A stretch of DNA of 64,000 bases. Source: Cellulomonas sp. KH9 (GTDB lineage Bacteria; Actinomycetota; Actinomycetes; Actinomycetales; Cellulomonadaceae). The stretch lies in contig NZ_FOSE01000002.1 of NCBI RefSeq assembly GCF_900114185.1, forward strand, positions 683,909 to 747,908, given 5' to 3'. The notes below the pieces were generated by a model. It had not been told where the DNA came from, searched no databases, and worked only from the letters and a program-made list of their open reading frames with translations. Of the stretch, positions 45,864 to 53,273 are shown piece after piece; position 1 is the first letter of the stretch; every line of letters starts with the position of its first letter. Position numbers and translations under genes: made by a program.

Positions 45864-46789
45864 AGCGCCTCCCCCACCCATGTCAGCTCAGCCCCGGACG
45901 GGAAGTACCGCCCGCGGATCGCGTCCGACGCGGCCGAGCACGCACGCTGCACGCGCTCCATCTCCCGCGGCAGCGCGTCGATGATCTCCAGCAGCGGCCG
46001 GTACTCCAGGCTCGTGCGCACGTGCCCGATGTGCCGACGTGCGTCGTCGATGGTCGCGCGGTCGGCGATCGGCTCCAGTGCCGCGAGCGACGCCTCCGCC
46101 TCGTTCAGGGCGTAGACGATGGACCGCGGGAACAGACGGTCGAGCAGCAGGAAGCCCGCCGCGCGCTCGTCGGACGCGTTGCCGCGGTAGGTGCGCAGGA
46201 AGGCCTCGTGCGCCCCGCACGAGCGCAGCAGCGTCGCCCAGCTCGGCCCGGCCGACCCGGCCAGCGCGCGCGTCGTCAGCAGGCGCGCCGTCATGTCCGC
46301 CCGTTCGATCGACCGCCCCAGGACCATGAAGTGCCAGGTCTCGTCCCGGGACGTCGTGGACTCCATGATCCCGGTGACGATCGCGGCACGCTCGCGCACC
46401 CAGGTGAAGTAGTCGTGCGGGCGGGCCGGACGCATCTGGGACGGCAGCTGGTTCCAGCTGGTGTTGAGGCACTCCCACAGCTCGGTCGAGACGATCTCCC
46501 GCGCCCGGCGCGCGTTCTCGCGGGCGGCCACCAGGGCCCCGGCGATCGACGACGGCGAGAACCGGTCGTACGCCAGGATGTCCAGGACGTGCTCACGCCC
46601 CACCTCGAGGTCGTCGGGCGGCGCCGGACGGTCCATGACCGACAGCAGCGAGCGGCAGGCCAGGTCCTCCTCGGCCCACGGGTCCTCGAGCAGGATCTGC
46701 ACGTGGACGTCGAGCAGCCGGGCGGTGTCGTCGGCCCGCTCGACGTACCGGCCGATCCAGAACAGCGACTCGGCGATGCGGCTCAGCAC
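45860..46789 (-). CDS. Alpha-E domain protein (DUF403)
   Basis: All-helical protein of 309 aa that begins LSRIAESLFWIGRYVERADDTARLLD, in outline the diagnostic opening of the alpha-E family. The Glu-rich helices (ERADDTARLL and SIERADMTARLL) repeat the same motif at residues about 17 and 175, suggesting two related halves. It works with the circularly permuted ATP-grasp protein and the transglutaminase encoded next to it, but its biochemical role is unsettled. GTG start, 7 bp inside the upstream gene. Confidence 0.9.
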   Translation of the reverse strand: MLSRIAESLFWIGRYVERADDTARLLDVHVQILLEDPWAEEDLACRSLLSVMDRPAPPDDLEVGREHVLDILAYDRFSPSSIAGALVAARENARRAREIVSTELWECLNTSWNQLPSQMRPARPHDYFTWVRERAAIVTGIMESTTSRDETWHFMVLGRSIERADMTARLLTTRALAGSAGPSWATLLRSCGAHEAFLRTYRGNASDERAAGFLLLDRLFPRSIVYALNEAEASLAALEPIADRATIDDARRHIGHVRTSLEYRPLLEIIDALPREMERVQRACSAASDAIRGRYFPSGAELTWVGEAL

Positions 46790-48372
46790 GTCGCACCCCC
46801 GGTCGTCCGCTGCTGCTGCTGTTGCTGTTGCTGCATGACCTGGACGCGGGCGTCGGACGGGTTGGAGTCGATCGGCACGGAGGCGTCCTTCGGGACCGCC
46901 TGCGGCCGCGACTGGCTCTGCGTCTGCGCGCGGCGCGGGACGCGGCCGCCCAGGACCCAGGTGTCCTTGGAGCCGCCGCCCTGCGAGGAGTTGACGACCA
47001 GCTGCCCCTCCGGCAGCGCCACCCGGGTCAGGCCGCCGGGCAGCACGTAGACCGAGTCGCCGTCGTTCACGGCGAACGGCCGCAGGTCGACGTGCCGCGG
47101 GCGCAGGCCGTCGTCCACGAGCGTCGGGACGGTCGAGAGCTGGACGACCGGCTGCGCGATCCAGCCGCGCGGGTCCTCGCGCAGCCGGGCGCGCAGCACG
47201 TCGAGCTCGGCGCGGGTCGCTCGCGGCCCGACGACCAGGCCCTTGCCGCCCGACCCGTCGACCGGCTTGACGACGAGCTCGTGCAGGCGGTCGAGCACCT
47301 CCTCGAGGGCGCCCGGGTCCTCGAGCCGCCACGTGTCCACGTTGGGCAGGATCGGCTCCTCGCCCAGGTGGTACCGGATGAGGTCGGGGACGTAGGTGTA
47401 GAGCAGCTTGTCGTCCGCGACGCCGTTGCCGACGGCGTTGGCGATGGTGACGTTGCCGAGGCGCGCGCAGGTCATGATGCCCGGGCAGCCCAGCAGCGAG
47501 TCGGACCGGAACGTCACGGGGTCGATGAACTCGTCGTCGACCCGCCGGTAGATGACGTCGACGCGGCGCCGCCCCTGGGTCGTGCGCATCCACACCCGGC
47601 CGCCGGACACGTACAGGTCCCGCCCCTCGACGAGCTCGACGCCCATCGTCCGGGCGAGGAGCGTGTGCTCGAAGTACGCCGAGTTGAAGACGCCCGGTGT
47701 CAGGACGACCACCGTGGGGTCGTCGACGCCGTGCGGCGCCGCCGCGGTGAGCGCCGCCAGCAGCCGACGCGAGTAGTCCACGACGGGCCGGATGCGCAGC
47801 GTGGCGAACAGCTCCGGGAACGTCTGCGCCATGGCGCGGCGGTTCGACAGCACGTAGCTGACGCCGGACGGCACCCGCACGTTGTCCTCGAGCACGCGCC
47901 AGCCCCCGAGGGAGTCCCGCACCAGGTCGATCCCGGAGACGTGCACGCGCACGCCGTTGGGCGGCTCGATGCCCCGCGCGGCCCGGTGGAAGTGGTTCGA
48001 GGAGACGACGACCGACCGCGGCACCACCCCGTCCGCGACCGACTTCTGCGGGCCGTAGACGTCCGCGAGGAACGCCTCCAGCGCCCGCACCCGCTGCGAC
48101 ACGCCGGGCGCGACGTGCTCCCACTCGTCACCCGCCATCACGCGCGGCACGACGTCCAGGGGGAACGGGCGCTCCTCCCCGGCGAAGTCGAACGTGACGC
48201 CCTGCTTGAGGTACGACCGCGCGAGGGTGTCCGCACGCGCCCGCAGCTCGCCCGCCGACAGCTGCGCGAGCGCCGAGTGCACGTGGCGGTACGCCGCACG
48301 GACCTCACCGTCCGGGCCGATCATCTCGTCCCACGCGGTACCCGCCGGGTAGTCGTCGAAGAGGTCGGCCAT
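46783..48372 (-). CDS. Circularly permuted ATP-grasp ligase-like protein (DUF404/DUF407)
   Basis: Protein of 529 aa with the family's blocks VVVSSNHFHRAARGIEPPNG in part, GGWRVLEDNVRVPSGVSYVL in part, VIYRRVDDEFIDP and VVKPVDGSGGKGLVVGP, the last being the ATP-grasp Lys and Gly loop. It probably forms an amide or peptide bond with ATP. The C-terminus has a tail ending in eight Gln in a row that is not part of the conserved fold. ATG start 6 nt after a TAGATT -10 box; it heads the operon with the alpha-E and transglutaminase genes. Confidence 0.9.
   Translation of the reverse strand: MADLFDDYPAGTAWDEMIGPDGEVRAAYRHVHSALAQLSAGELRARADTLARSYLKQGVTFDFAGEERPFPLDVVPRVMAGDEWEHVAPGVSQRVRALEAFLADVYGPQKSVADGVVPRSVVVSSNHFHRAARGIEPPNGVRVHVSGIDLVRDSLGGWRVLEDNVRVPSGVSYVLSNRRAMAQTFPELFATLRIRPVVDYSRRLLAALTAAAPHGVDDPTVVVLTPGVFNSAYFEHTLLARTMGVELVEGRDLYVSGGRVWMRTTQGRRRVDVIYRRVDDEFIDPVTFRSDSLLGCPGIMTCARLGNVTIANAVGNGVADDKLLYTYVPDLIRYHLGEEPILPNVDTWRLEDPGALEEVLDRLHELVVKPVDGSGGKGLVVGPRATRAELDVLRARLREDPRGWIAQPVVQLSTVPTLVDDGLRPRHVDLRPFAVNDGDSVYVLPGGLTRVALPEGQLVVNSSQGGGSKDTWVLGGRVPRRAQTQSQSRPQAVPKDASVPIDSNPSDARVQVMQQQQQQQQRTTGGATC
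46810..46833 (-). repeat. Poly-Gln codon run (8 x CAG/CAA)
   Basis: Eight consecutive glutamine codons, six CAG and two CAA, near the end of the ATP-grasp gene. Such a run is uncommon in bacteria and could vary in length by slippage. Confidence 0.9.
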
Positions 48373-49105: not shown

Positions 49106-49366
49106 GTGGCGAACATCAAGTCCCAGATCAAGCGCATCCGCACGAACGAGAAGGCCCGGCTGCGGAACAAGTCCGTCAAGTCCGAGCTCAAGACGTACGT
49201 GCGTCGCGTCCGCGAGGCCGTCGCCGGTGGCGACAAGGACGCGGCGAACGCTGCGCTCGCCGTCGCGGCGCGCAAGCTCGACAAGGCGGTGTCCAAGGGC
49301 GTGATCCACGCCAACCAGGCCGCCAACCGCAAGTCGGCGCTGTCGAAGGCCGTCAACGGCCTCTGA
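49106..49366 (+). CDS. rpsT: 30S ribosomal protein S20
   Basis: Primary 16S rRNA-binding protein of 86 aa, basic and helical, with the family start [20 protein letters not shown] and '[12 protein letters not shown]' near the end. GTG start with AAGAGAG about 7-14 nt upstream. It stands alone, as is usual for rpsT, with its own promoter and a strong hairpin after the stop. Confidence 0.97.
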
Positions 49367-49487: not shown

Positions 49488-50816
49488 TCAGCCGCCCAGC
49501 GCCCACGTCTCGCGCGGCGCACCCGTCGGCACCGACGGGTGGAAGCCCGCCTCGCGCAGGGCACGGTCGAACGCCCGCGCCGCCGCGTCGACGTCGCCGC
49601 GACGGAGGTAGCGGTCACCCAGGTCACGCCAGACGCCGGCGGAGTACCGCGAGGCCGCCATCATGCCGAGCATGTCGGCCGCCCACTTGAACGACGCGGT
49701 CGCGCCCTCGTGGTCCCCGCGGGCGTCGAGCACGTCACCCAGCGCGACGTGCGCCGTGGCGGACTCCAGCCGGGGCGCGTCGCCCAGACCCTCCAGCGCC
49801 CGCCGCGCGTCGGCCTCGGCCGCACCCTCGTCGCCCAGGAGCAGGTGCGCCCGTGAGCGCTCGACCTGCAGGCGCGCGATGTCGAGCGCCGAGCCGACCG
49901 CGCTCACCCCCGGCTCCGCCCTGTCGATCTGCTCGAGCGCGGCCCGCGGGTCCGCCGGCTCGGAGCGCAGCAGGAGCCAGGCGTAGTTCACCCGCAGCCG
50001 GGGCAGGTCCCGGTCGGGCTCCCCCTCCGACAGCAGGGCGAGCGCCCGCTCCGTGTACCGCTGCGCAAGCTCGTAGTCCCGGCGCTGCTCGGCCACCAGC
50101 GCGGCGTTCCAGTACACGCTGCCCCGGCCGCGGGGCGTGCCGAGCGACTCCGCGAGCCGCACGAGCTCCGCCGCGCGGTGCGTCGCGTAGAGCAGGTCGC
50201 CGCGCTCGACGTACGCCCACAGCACGGTCGACGCGAGCCGCAGGTGCTCGTCGGTCCCGAGCAGGTCCGCGGTGTCGAGGTCCGCGAGCGTGACCTCCCC
50301 CACCTCGACCGCGCGGTGCAGGTCGCCCGCCTCGAGGTAGCAGCCGACCAGGGCCGTCGTGAGCGAGGCGGCGCGCAGGTGGTCGGGGCGCTCCCGTGTC
50401 TCGGCCAGCAGCGGCTCGAGCAGGGCGATCGCCGTCTCCAGTTCACCGAGCACCTCGTGGGCGCAGGCGAGCGTGGTGAGCGCCTCGACGCGCAGCACGG
50501 GCGTGACCACGGTGAGGTCCAGCGCGTCGATGCGCCGGACCGCGCCGGCGGCGTCGCCGCTGGCCAGGTCGAGCCGCGCGTAGTCGAGCTCGAGCCGGGT
50601 CCGCGCCTCGTTGGGGCCGTCCTCGCCGTGCTTGAGGAACTCGAGCGTCGTGCCGAGACGCTCCGCCAGCACACCGAGCGCGGCGTCCGTCGGTTCCCGG
50701 TGGCCGGCCTCGATGAGAGAGATGTAGCTGGGCGAGAACGCGTTGCCCGCCAGCGCCGTCTGGGAGAGCCCGCAGGCCAGCCGCGCCTCGCGCACGCGGT
50801 CACCGATCGTCGTCAT
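49488..50816 (-). CDS. XRE-type HTH regulator with C-terminal TPR array (RRNPP-like)
   Basis: Cytoplasmic protein of 442 aa. Residues 1-62 are a Cro/CI helix-turn-helix (GDRVREARLACGLSQTALAG, then SPSYISLIEAGHREPT). Residues 70-430 are a long alpha-helical array with TPR-like spacing, for example 'GSVYWNAALVAEQRRDYELAQRYTERALAL' in outline and 'GDVLDARGDHEGATASFKWA'. This layout is that of the Rap/PlcR/PrgX class and of actinobacterial HTH-TPR regulators, which bind short peptides in the TPR groove. A gene for an exported 41-aa peptide lies 196 bp upstream on the same strand. A TACAAT -10 box 8 nt before the ATG suggests a leaderless mRNA. Confidence 0.88.
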   Translation of the reverse strand: MTTIGDRVREARLACGLSQTALAGNAFSPSYISLIEAGHREPTDAALGVLAERLGTTLEFLKHGEDGPNEARTRLELDYARLDLASGDAAGAVRRIDALDLTVVTPVLRVEALTTLACAHEVLGELETAIALLEPLLAETRERPDHLRAASLTTALVGCYLEAGDLHRAVEVGEVTLADLDTADLLGTDEHLRLASTVLWAYVERGDLLYATHRAAELVRLAESLGTPRGRGSVYWNAALVAEQRRDYELAQRYTERALALLSEGEPDRDLPRLRVNYAWLLLRSEPADPRAALEQIDRAEPGVSAVGSALDIARLQVERSRAHLLLGDEGAAEADARRALEGLGDAPRLESATAHVALGDVLDARGDHEGATASFKWAADMLGMMAASRYSAGVWRDLGDRYLRRGDVDAAARAFDRALREAGFHPSVPTGAPRETWALGG

Positions 50817-50821
50817 GAGAA

Positions 50822-50838
50822 GTCATTGTACGTATGAC
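50822..50838. promoter_or_regulatory. Palindrome over the XRE-TPR promoter
   Basis: GTCAT-N7-ATGAC spans the -10 box of the XRE-TPR gene. The 7-mer GACGTTC also occurs twice nearby (50836-50842 and 50874-50880) in the same orientation. Either could be the regulator's own binding site. Confidence 0.4.
50825..50830 (-). promoter_or_regulatory. -10 box TACAAT of the XRE-TPR gene
   Basis: TACAAT is 5/6 to consensus and lies 8 nt before the ATG; no Shine-Dalgarno. No -35 of quality, so activation by a regulator is possible. Confidence 0.6.
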
Positions 50839-51012
50839 GTTCGTGAAAGCCATCCCCCTGGCGATTCACGGCCGACGTTCACCCTCCGGGGTTGCGCGGC
50901 GCGCCGGGCCGGGCACGACAAGGTGCCGGCCCGGCGCGCGACGCGGACCGCCGGCGCGGCGTGACCGATCACCGCCGACCGGTCGCCGACCCGCGTCCGA
51001 CGGGGAGCGCGA

Positions 51013-51138
51013 TCAGAGGGCCTTGCAGCACCCGCTCGCGCCGCCGTAGATCGAGACCGACGCGGTGGCGGCAGGAACGCCGACGACGAGCGAACCGGCG
51101 ATGGCGAGGACGGCGAGTGCACTGGTGAGGGGCTTCAT
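51013..51138 (-). CDS. Small exported peptide (candidate pheromone precursor)
   Basis: A 41-codon gene. GGAG lies 7 nt before the ATG. The product has a textbook signal peptide: basic KP start, hydrophobic core LAVLAIAGSLVVGV, and a cleavage site ATA|S after residue 26. The predicted mature peptide is SVSIYGGASGCCKAL, 15 residues with adjacent Cys. A Sec-exported peptide of this size beside an XRE-TPR regulator fits a peptide-signalling pair; alternatives are a small secreted Cys peptide with another role (antimicrobial, metal binding). The sequence resembles no family I know. It is on the same strand as the regulator gene and divergent from the EAL gene. Confidence 0.75.
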   Translation of the reverse strand: MKPLTSALAVLAIAGSLVVGVPAATASVSIYGGASGCCKAL

Positions 51139-51258
51139 GGTCGTTCTCCTGTCAGAGGGCTTCGTGCTCCCTGGGGGACGTGGGCTCGACGGCCCGCCAG
51201 GTCGGGACGCGTCGCCGACAGGGTGACACACCGGCAGGATCCGCGCGAACACCCGTGC

Positions 51259-51270
51259 ACCCGAACGGGT
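51259..51270. promoter_or_regulatory. Palindrome between peptide and EAL genes
   Basis: ACCCG-AA-CGGGT, a perfect 12-bp palindrome. The half-site ACCCGT recurs at 51251-51256 and 51303-51308 in this 195-bp divergent promoter region, and a CACGTG/GTGATCAC pair lies at 51294-51304. A candidate regulator site. Confidence 0.4.
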
Positions 51271-51333
51271 CGGGCGGATTTCCACCCTCTCGACACGTGA
51301 TCACCCGTACGCACCTGTGGTGTCATAGGGCCC

Positions 51334-52062
51334 ATGACATCGGACGACCAGGACGCGACGCTCGCCCGGATCGGCGCGGCGGTCGATGCGGCGATCCCCC
51401 GCGCGCTGCGGCGCGCCTGGGAGCAGCACCTGGCGCACGATCCCGTGCTCGTCGCCCGGCAGGGCATCTACTCGACGCACGGCCGGCCCTTCGCGTACCA
51501 GCTCTCCTACCGTGCGCCCGGCCACCACCCGGACCTCGCCCGCACCTGGGACCGGGCCGCCCACGAGCACGCCACGGACCACGTGCTGCGCGCCACGTTC
51601 GGGCGCGCCGACCTCGAGCAGGTGGCGCACGGGCGCCTGCTGTTCGTCCGCTGCCCCCGGGCGCACCTGCTGGGCGAGCTCCCGGTGCCCGCACGCCCGG
51701 ACCGCCTGGTGATCGAGGTCAGCAGCACGGCCGAGGTCGACGCCGCGGCCCTGGCGGGGCTGCGTCGGCTCCGTGAGCAGGGATTCCGCATCGCGCTGCC
51801 GGCCTTCGCCGACCGTCCGGAGCAGCGGCGCCTGCTGCCGCACGCGGACTTCGTCAAGGTGGACGTGCGCGACCTGGACGTCGAGGGCGACCCCGTGGTC
51901 CGTGTCGCGCGCTCGTTCGGCGCGATGCTCGTCGCGGAGTACGTCGAGTCGCCCGAGGTGCTGCGCCACGCGCGCGACCTGGGGTTCACGCTCTTCCAGG
52001 GCAACCTGATCGAGCGGGCCGGCGTCCTCGACCGCGCCGGGGCGCGCCTCGTCGGGCACTGA
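51334..52062 (+). CDS. Degenerate EAL-domain protein (YuxH-like)
   Basis: Protein of 242 aa. VARQGIYSTHGRPFAYQLSYR is the shape of the 'RQPIfd..l...YELLfR' opening of YuxH/HDOD-EAL proteins in which the Glu of E-A-L/E-L-L is replaced by Gln (YQL). Later blocks are DFVKVDVRDL and AEYVES, and GFTLFQGNLIERAGV near the end matches the EAL C-terminus. The catalytic Glu and most metal ligands of c-di-GMP phosphodiesterases are missing, so it should bind a ligand or partner but not hydrolyse it. No HDOD domain follows. Divergent from the small peptide gene. Hairpin after the stop. Confidence 0.72.
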   Translation: MTSDDQDATLARIGAAVDAAIPRALRRAWEQHLAHDPVLVARQGIYSTHGRPFAYQLSYRAPGHHPDLARTWDRAAHEHATDHVLRATFGRADLEQVAHGRLLFVRCPRAHLLGELPVPARPDRLVIEVSSTAEVDAAALAGLRRLREQGFRIALPAFADRPEQRRLLPHADFVKVDVRDLDVEGDPVVRVARSFGAMLVAEYVESPEVLRHARDLGFTLFQGNLIERAGVLDRAGARLVGH

Positions 52063-52226: not shown

Positions 52227-53273
52227 TCAGCGGTCGACCGCCGCCGCGACCCGCAGCACCGCACGCTCCACCGCGAACCGCGGGTCGCGTCCCTCGCCCT
52301 TGACCTCCGCGTCGGCCTGCGCCACCGCGGAGATGGCGACGGCCAGGCCCTCGGGGCTCCAGCGCCGCAGGTCCTGCGCCGCACGGTCCACCTGCCAGGG
52401 GGCCATGCCCAGCTCCCGTGCGGCAGCGGCGCCCCGCCCGCGGACCGCGCCCACCTTCGCCAGCGTGCGCAGCCGCGCGGCGACCGCCGCGACGACCGGC
52501 ACCGGGTCCAGCCCCGTCGCCATGGCGTGCCGCAGCAGCGCGACGGCCCGGCCCGCGTCCCCGGCGACCGCGGCGTCGGCGACCTGGAAGCCCGTCGCCT
52601 CGACACGCCCGCCGTGGTACCGCTGGACGGCCTCCTCGCCGATCACGCCGGTCGTGTCCGCCACGAGCTGCGCGCACGCGGCCGCCAGCTCCCGCAGGTC
52701 CGAGCCGACCGCGTCCACCAGAGCCCGCACGCCGCGACCGTCGGCGCGCCGGCCGGCCCGGCGCAGCTCCTCGGTGACGAACGCGGTCTTGTCCGCGTCC
52801 GTACGGACCTGGTCGCACGCGACCGTGGGGACCTGCTCCCGCTTCGCCGCGTCGAGCAGCCGCTTGCCCCGCTGACCGCCGCCGTGCCGGAGCACGACGA
52901 CGACGTCGGGCACCGGCGCCGCCAGGTACGCCTCGGCGTCGAGCAGGAGCGCGTCCCCCGCACGCTCCACCCCCTCGACGAGCACGACCTTGGCCTCCGC
53001 GAAGAGCGAGGGACTGGTCAGGACGCTCAGCTCGCCCTGCGCGTAGGTGGCGGCGTCGACCCGGGTCACCTCGACCTCCGGGTCGGTCTCGCGGACCTGC
53101 GCGACGATGCGCTCGCACGCACGGTCGGCCAGCAGGCCCTCCGGGCCGGCGACGAGGACCACGGGAGCCGGCGCCGCCTGCGTCCACGGCACGCCGCCCG
53201 ACGAGCCGGCGGACCGCCCGCGCGACGAGCCGGCGGTGCTGCGGGACGGACGTGCGGGTGTACGGGCGGCCAC
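52227..53273 (-). CDS. holA: DNA polymerase III subunit delta
   Basis: Clamp-loader wrench subunit (348 aa) that opens the beta sliding clamp. Recognisable by the AAA+-like but ATP-binding-deficient N-terminal domain (PVVLVAGPEGLLADRACERI in part), VDAATYAQGELSVLTSPSLFAEAKVVLVEG in outline, and the C-terminal helical collar. A 35-residue Ser/Arg-rich extension precedes the domain. GTG start 49 bp after comEC; comEA-comEC-holA is the usual order. Confidence 0.93.
   Translation of the reverse strand: MAARTPARPSRSTAGSSRGRSAGSSGGVPWTQAAPAPVVLVAGPEGLLADRACERIVAQVRETDPEVEVTRVDAATYAQGELSVLTSPSLFAEAKVVLVEGVERAGDALLLDAEAYLAAPVPDVVVVLRHGGGQRGKRLLDAAKREQVPTVACDQVRTDADKTAFVTEELRRAGRRADGRGVRALVDAVGSDLRELAAACAQLVADTTGVIGEEAVQRYHGGRVEATGFQVADAAVAGDAGRAVALLRHAMATGLDPVPVVAAVAARLRTLAKVGAVRGRGAAAARELGMAPWQVDRAAQDLRRWSPEGLAVAISAVAQADAEVKGEGRDPRFAVERAVLRVAAAVDR

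Follow-up and report, generated by a model that had tools for sequence, protein, structure and literature searches.

The known systems closest to the locus described here are the RRNPP (or RRNPPA) systems of Bacillota (Rap, Rgg, NprR, PlcR, PrgX, AimR), especially the SHP/Rgg and PapR/PlcR pairs, and the papers examined treat peptide signalling via cytoplasmic receptors with tetratricopeptide repeats (TPR) as a trait of the Bacillota. The present analysis concerns a stretch of 64,000 nucleotides (nt) from the soil actinobacterium Cellulomonas sp. KH9 (contig NZ_FOSE01000002.1, positions 683,909 to 747,908), referred to below as the window, in which the gene for a 442-amino-acid (aa) regulator with a helix-turn-helix (HTH) and TPR lies next to a gene for a 41-aa precursor peptide. 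The locus points to peptide cell-to-cell signalling in a phylum, the Actinomycetota, where such systems are hardly known. An RRNPP-type reading had been proposed in an initial annotation of the window, and it is supported by the pairing of the two genes, selection on the peptide core and shared operator sites. On these sequence comparisons, we consider it likely that the pair forms an RRNPP-like circuit of exported peptide and cytoplasmic receptor, which would regulate itself and control a linked, degenerate EAL-domain protein.

As in RRNPP systems, the gene for a TPR receptor with an N-terminal HTH adjoins a small gene for a propeptide with a signal peptide, the C-terminal part of the propeptide is conserved and apparently under selection, the operators imply autoregulation and some precursors carry duplicated pheromone copies. 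Unlike them, the systems considered here occur in Actinomycetota and have peptides of a Cys-Cys or Trp-Pro type; at the Cellulomonas locus, an EAL gene is linked, the operator overlaps -10-like elements and the regulator matches, in Pfam and NCBIfam, only general HTH/TPR and non-RRNPP models. The gamma-butyrolactone signal is an enzyme-made small molecule, in contrast to the gene-encoded peptide considered here, and its receptors belong to another family. It serves population signalling in the phylum according to a review (PMC4748050), a role that the peptide would share.

RRNPP-type pairs had been described as little known in actinobacteria, and no paper on such a peptide/TPR-receptor pair there was found among the listed matches (titles and abstract openings) of searches in open-licence literature; a paper beyond that literature may exist. 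As described, the sole targets of RRNPP_detector were Firmicutes and viruses, and actinobacterial signals are regarded by its developers as typically small molecules (PMC10075063). The terms 'actinobacteria' and 'actinomycet' occur 0 times in the main text of two large surveys (PMC12700828; PMC9765709). Within their accessible text, a 2026 review describes RRNPP in Firmicutes (PMC13220807) and a 2016 review of actinobacterial quorum sensing gives 'TPR' among the predicted genes of some genera and leaves Cellulomonas unmentioned (PMC4748050).

Pairing of the peptide gene with the regulator

Orthologs were searched in 78 genomes, 48 of them from the same genus (own genome included). The regulator has an ortholog in 39 of these 48, with 60-97% identity when the own genome is excluded. 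A scan of up to 1,200 nt upstream for signal-peptide-like open reading frames (ORFs) with a ribosome-binding site (RBS) and an AxA-like site, in which a CC pair was not required, returned a precursor ORF at all 39 loci (L001-L039), on the same strand and 82-364 nt upstream of the regulator, and every one of these precursors carries CC close to its end; extra unrelated candidates, either fragments of the EAL gene or ORFs arisen by chance, appeared at four loci (L014, L015, L025, L026). In the Cellulomonas/Actinotalea clade (regulators above 400 bits from named genomes, the best 80 of 217 loci, plus the own genome), a scan with CC required gave a peptide for 67 of the 68 regulators, and the sole regulator without its own, the first copy in L119, is a tandem paralog adjoining a shared peptide. 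This count includes L132, accepted after a weak RBS-like string had been added to the filter by hand; L108 lay just under the hydrophobicity cut-off of the filter used outside the class and was recovered in the background scan, and thresholds differ slightly among the same-genus, outside-class, background and clade scans. Under a closely similar filter, 2 small signal-peptide ORFs, without CC near the end, turn up in the remaining 61,200 bases of this DNA stretch, and related loci away from regulators hold 11 in 334,178 bases, 0 with CC near the end. Since such background ORFs are rare and none of the 13 over 395 kb carries CC near its end, the pairing is not a matter of chance, and the expected linkage of peptide gene and orthologous regulators is borne out in both sets.

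The precursor reads MKPLTSALAVLAIAGSLVVGVPAATASVSIYGGASGCCKAL and ends in GGASGCCKAL, and the RBS GACAGGAGAACGACC precedes its ATG. Signal peptides were called by simple rules, by which the earlier description of a good RBS and a signal-peptide precursor was confirmed; the exported part and its cleavage after ATA are predicted from the sequence. Among the 65 unique peptides supplied by the clade filter, CC is found in 65, where it was a criterion; 63 have Gly ahead of it, and the residue behind it is Lys or Arg in 62. Ratios of nonsynonymous to synonymous change (dN/dS, Nei-Gojobori) were obtained for four clades that take in 40 of these peptides and, in constant clade order, amount to 0.10, 0.15, 0.00 and 0.40 for the core, 0.33, 0.58, 0.30 and 0.77 for the signal part, 0.40, 1.47, 1.45 and 2.01 for the linker and 2.25, 3.99, 1.52 and 5.60 for the tail after CC[K/R], figures that are indicative because the regions have few codons. 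The range of 0.00-0.40 agrees with the selection on the C-terminus that the initial annotation had led one to expect. The core is under purifying selection, and linker and tail diverge. This pattern fits a peptide whose core stays constant as its end changes, and the fast-changing tail may set strain specificity. Among 25 database proteins resembling the peptide, the 7 named ones are hypothetical or uncharacterized.

Other roles for the peptide were considered at this point. An XRE-type regulator with a small hydrophobic ORF as its neighbour is a common layout, and the locus shares it; a toxin-antitoxin or bacteriocin-like pair, in which the regulator would keep a membrane-active peptide in check, is nevertheless very improbable, as the C-terminal core and not the hydrophobic segment is most conserved, the operator described below also occurs at the EAL gene and, by eye, the stretch from S20 to holA in the window holds no other plausible gene besides those of the regulator, the peptide and the EAL protein. 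A precursor of a ribosomally synthesized and post-translationally modified peptide was set aside, no other plausible gene being seen at the locus. A lipoprotein reading of GASGCC was likewise rejected on account of the polar linker between this motif and the hydrophobic segment.

For the regulator, the proposed HTH-TPR layout was recovered with Pfam, HTH_3 (1.6e-9) and TPR families scoring above cut-off. No membrane domain is among its family matches, and it is presumably cytoplasmic. Asn, Trp and Arg residues (N237, W236 and R273 in 52/53, R397 in 53/53) are near-invariant at TPR positions that, judged by motif register only, would face the groove, and their assignment to an Asn/basic network holding the peptide backbone is tentative. 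N237 belongs to a YWN motif that also appears in the consensus of a group outside the class. Because none of the Pfam and NCBIfam matches to E 1 came from a model that we take to be RRNPP-specific, we do not file the regulator among the RRNPP on sequence grounds; what ties the subfamilies of that group together is often structure and not sequence. PlcR is matched among PDB sequences (1.8e-7, best stretch 3-184), a match that may rest mainly on the HTH. A weak likeness to NsdA-family TPR regulators covers residues 194-391 (NF053720, E 6.8e-5, 22.5 bits against a cut-off of 75), and we know of no peptide partner for that family. The four matches obtained when viral contigs were searched with the regulator (query A1) cover only residues 1-64, the HTH part, so no phage version was found.

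Several loci depart from the simple arrangement. An additional, diverged HTH-TPR regulator stands between the EAL and peptide genes of L037, L038 (G037, G043) and L119, in tandem with the ortholog, and two receptors appear to share one peptide. The regulator ortholog of L025/L066 (G039:C1:1505595-1506916) is split in two frames, by natural loss or sequencing error, and retains the peptide ORF and operators. The peptide profile (A3), run against the nine genomes of the genus that have no regulator, returned many weak and no strong matches among those listed; the one inspected, in G031, is a 40-aa signal-peptide ORF ending SPCCKAT (L219, G031:C6, 1501-1623), with no regulator within 1.5 kb upstream, in a genome without a detected regulator ortholog or close paralog. 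It is possibly an orphan peptide gene.

Shared operator sites and proposed circuit

A TACAAT promoter and two palindromes had been noted at the locus. All are present, and, beyond that description, both palindromes are copies of one operator. The regulators are preceded, 21-22 nt ahead of the start codon, by a common 17-bp motif, GTCAY-N7-RTGAC, which includes a TANART -10 element and in which T9 is kept in 64/65 sites, A10 in 65/65 and T14 in 65/65. The regulator is probably translated from a leaderless mRNA, given that TACAAT lies 8 nt ahead of the start codon. The site over the regulator promoter (O1) is perfect in 56 of 67 systems and has one mismatch in 9 and two in 2, and the candidate before the peptide gene (O2) is perfect in 36 and has one mismatch in 20. 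Of the 52 systems in which an EAL gene adjoins, 45 have a perfect site at that gene (O3), compared with 0/9 of the same-genus genomes that have no regulator, where O3 has one mismatch in three and is worse in six. Conservation marks O1-O3 as sites, to which the regulator is presumed to bind.

Sites with one mismatch are hardly more frequent in the window than by chance (13 against 10.3 expected). In eight genomes, strict GTCATN7ATGAC falls on O3 in 8/8, on O1 in 6/8 and on 11 other places, among which only GTCATCATGAGGATGAC recurs (3/8 genomes). The regulon therefore looks local, as the control pattern also gives 11 in all. A looser pattern has 34 places in the own genome against 6 for its control. 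Near same-genus paralogs of the regulator, a site with at most one mismatch lies about 70 nt before the regulator at 9/17 loci, 8 of which also have one about 80 nt before the peptide.

In the circuit proposed here, the product of the small gene would be exported via its signal peptide, and its C-terminal portion around GGASGCC[K/R], possibly after more trimming, would accumulate outside the cell. It could be taken back up by an oligopeptide transporter; seven PF00496 oligopeptide-binding proteins in the own genome make re-import possible only. In the cytoplasm, the peptide would bind the TPR groove of the regulator, whose putative targets are O1 at the regulator promoter, O2 ahead of the peptide gene and O3 at the EAL start. 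The free regulator would most likely repress by covering the -10 element, since O1 and, in many relatives, O2 (CATNAT pattern) overlap a -10-like element, and release by the peptide would give positive feedback on the peptide and switch on the EAL protein. This sign of regulation is the least certain step and is only moderately favoured. The pairing, the selection on the core and the shared operator are borne out by conservation.

Peptide types across the phylum

The pairing survives relocation of the genes. Same-genus paralogs of the regulator (36-41% identity; one in the own genome, at C5) have the peptide downstream at 17/17 loci, with ends of the form [A/S/T/Q]PCCK... and a tandem pair of peptides at three of the 17. 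A divergent peptide ending in CC accompanies the regulator at all eight loci judged in Jiangellaceae (L137, L139, L140, L143, L145, L147, L148) and a metagenome-assembled genome (L146); L138 and L142, whose contigs end 270 and 187 nt upstream, lie outside this set. CC peptides were also found in L136, L141 and L144 (first copy) and at the same-order loci L040, L041 and L048. Within a sample of the phylum, 24/396 genomes have a match at E <1e-24, some partial. Outside the class (L150-L167), a signal-peptide ORF of 28-44 aa stands beside the regulator at 15/18 loci, mostly divergent, with ends such as GFPWPK, GYPWPK, NWPHH, APWPPCC and APWPHCC. L171-L173 each have a signal-peptide ORF, and L177 has one of 61 aa ending GGNWPFFDD; the partial matches L168 and L170 were left out of judgement.

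Same-order precursors with two (L061) or three (L173) copies of GNWPDPM form the weakest link, because their regulators are distant (about 26-28% identity, tree branch 3.9). Pheromone repeats within a precursor are reported for some Phr propeptides in the accessible part of one paper (PMC11343458). A tree of 49 regulators resolves separate, well-supported clades for same-genus paralogs, Jiangellaceae, L150-L153, NWP loci and GNWPDPM loci; the window clade plus Actinotalea has support 94/90, and the WP-labelled loci fall in two places. Regulators like that of L150 account for at least 334 matches among 8,000 scored candidates.

These distributions bear on the nature of the signal. The CC pair, present in all 65 clade peptides where the filter demanded it and in 39/39 same-genus peptides unasked, could suit a secreted thiol- or metal-binding peptide, with a regulator that senses metal, redox or peptide backlog and not a population signal. 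We regard this as quite unlikely: homologous regulators outside the class adjoin Cys-less peptides (GYPWPK, NWPHH) and GNWPDPM repeats occur in a pair further removed, so the pairing is maintained by something other than Cys, and the conserved neighbours are S20, EAL and holA (S20 and holA named by recognition). It is also conceivable, if unlikely, that the regulator controls the peptide and EAL genes, which O2 and O3 mark as putative targets, in answer to another ligand, the peptide being an exported effector (e.g. a surface or development peptide) and a target only. Against this stand the persistence of the pairing with very different peptides in three gene orders, and the tandem peptide genes and precursor repeats, which are changes expected of a ligand.

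Several observations weigh against the RRNPP-like circuit. The orthologs are vertically related and their counts are thus not independent events, and very few codons lie behind the indicative dN/dS values. The filters found no peptide for L135, for a second, 762-aa reading in L144 or for L161, L162 and L167; no convincing peptide was found for L169 (genome G442, with a regulator homolog and no peptide by the filter), L174-L176 and L178. The O2 of the window clade is weak and is without the near -50 site of many other clades, and O2 has two mismatches in 11/67 systems. O3 is lost, with at least three mismatches, in 7/52 systems, and one or both sites are missing at 9/17 paralog loci. The nine Cellulomonas genomes without the regulator keep the EAL gene beside S20, with no regulator detected between, several retain the GTCAT half of O3, and they may form one related group, so that their imperfect O3 may be one event. 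Actinotalea has retained the peptide-regulator pair but has no EAL gene there.

We slightly favour a still wider reading, in which the phylum has a broad radiation of its own of gene-encoded pheromones, sensed by HTH-TPR receptors in the cytoplasm, separate from the known RRNPP families and differing by lineage in their codes (GCC[K/R], PCCK, terminal CC, WP-type and GNWPDPM repeats). The code of Cellulomonas would be a vicinal Cys pair with a fast-changing, possibly strain-specific tail, and its control of a degenerate EAL protein would connect peptide signals with the physiology of cyclic-di-GMP. Culturable Cellulomonas, with a conserved circuit defined by its operators and apparent relatives of that circuit across the phylum, offers a directly testable case. 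The peptides are short and easily synthesized, and a homologous HTH-TPR gene next to a tiny signal-peptide ORF offers a route to further systems.

Outside the class, L151-L155, L159 and L160 have palindromes of their own upstream of the regulator, of the form CTTAAC...GTTAAG in several and TGTAAC...GTTACA in L159, which suggests lineage-specific operators.

The EAL gene and remaining features of the locus

The features that the initial annotation had placed at the locus were all found there (Table 1). The peptide gene lies upstream of the regulator gene on the same strand, with 196 nt from its stop to the regulator start, and the EAL gene is divergent from it. The flanking genes, which we take to be rpsT and holA, are also near most relatives' loci. 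RNA folding of 50885-51012 gave -87.7 kcal/mol (z -2.64; 3/200 shuffles as low), and the hairpin after the peptide gene may end the peptide transcript.

Table 1. Features of the peptide-regulator locus (positions in the window)
Feature	Position	Strand	Basis or remark
rpsT (S20)	49106-49366		presumed identity
HTH (XRE/HTH_3)-TPR regulator gene, 442 aa	49488-50816	-	Pfam HTH_3 and TPR; ortholog in 39/48 same-genus genomes
Operator O1, GTCATACGTACAATGAC	50822-50838	-	over regulator promoter; perfect in window
-10 element TACAAT inside O1	50825-50830	-	8 nt before regulator ATG
Strong hairpin, possible terminator of peptide transcript	50899-50939	-	between peptide gene and regulator
41-aa precursor peptide gene	51013-51138	-	RBS and signal peptide; conserved with regulator orthologs
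Predicted exported part, SVSIYGGASGCCKAL	51016-51060	-	from sequence; presumed cleavage after ATA
Conserved core GGASGCCK, proposed pheromone core	51022-51045	-	residue conservation and dN/dS
Weak candidate operator O2, GTCACCCTGTCGGCGAC	51211-51227	-	before peptide gene, at -89; one mismatch
Operator O3, GTCATAGGGCCCATGAC	51322-51338	+	overlaps EAL start codon; perfect in window
Degenerate EAL-domain gene, 242 aa, proposed output gene	51334-52062	+	partial PF00563 match
holA	52227-53273		presumed identity

The degenerate state of the EAL gene, also noted before, is evident from a match solely to PF00563 positions 114-235 (2.4e-12), the N-terminal half being unmatched, and from a weak alignment to BlrP1 (E 0.001) in which DDFG reads PAFA. 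The intact EAL and DDFG motifs of a phosphodiesterase are not both present; since DDFG is absent, the protein is probably no active phosphodiesterase, and a binding or scaffold role is more likely. An EAL match is present in 48/48 same-genus genomes. The gene as an obligate partner of the pair was ruled out by its presence without the regulator in nine genomes and by the Actinotalea pair without it. Many relatives have a second EAL-like gene (about 40% identity) directly after the first, e.g. G031:C1:730887-731459, and the species of the window has one match only.

Elsewhere in the window, a 529-aa ORF on the minus strand (46783-48372) contains eight consecutive Gln codons toward its C-terminus (46810-46833).

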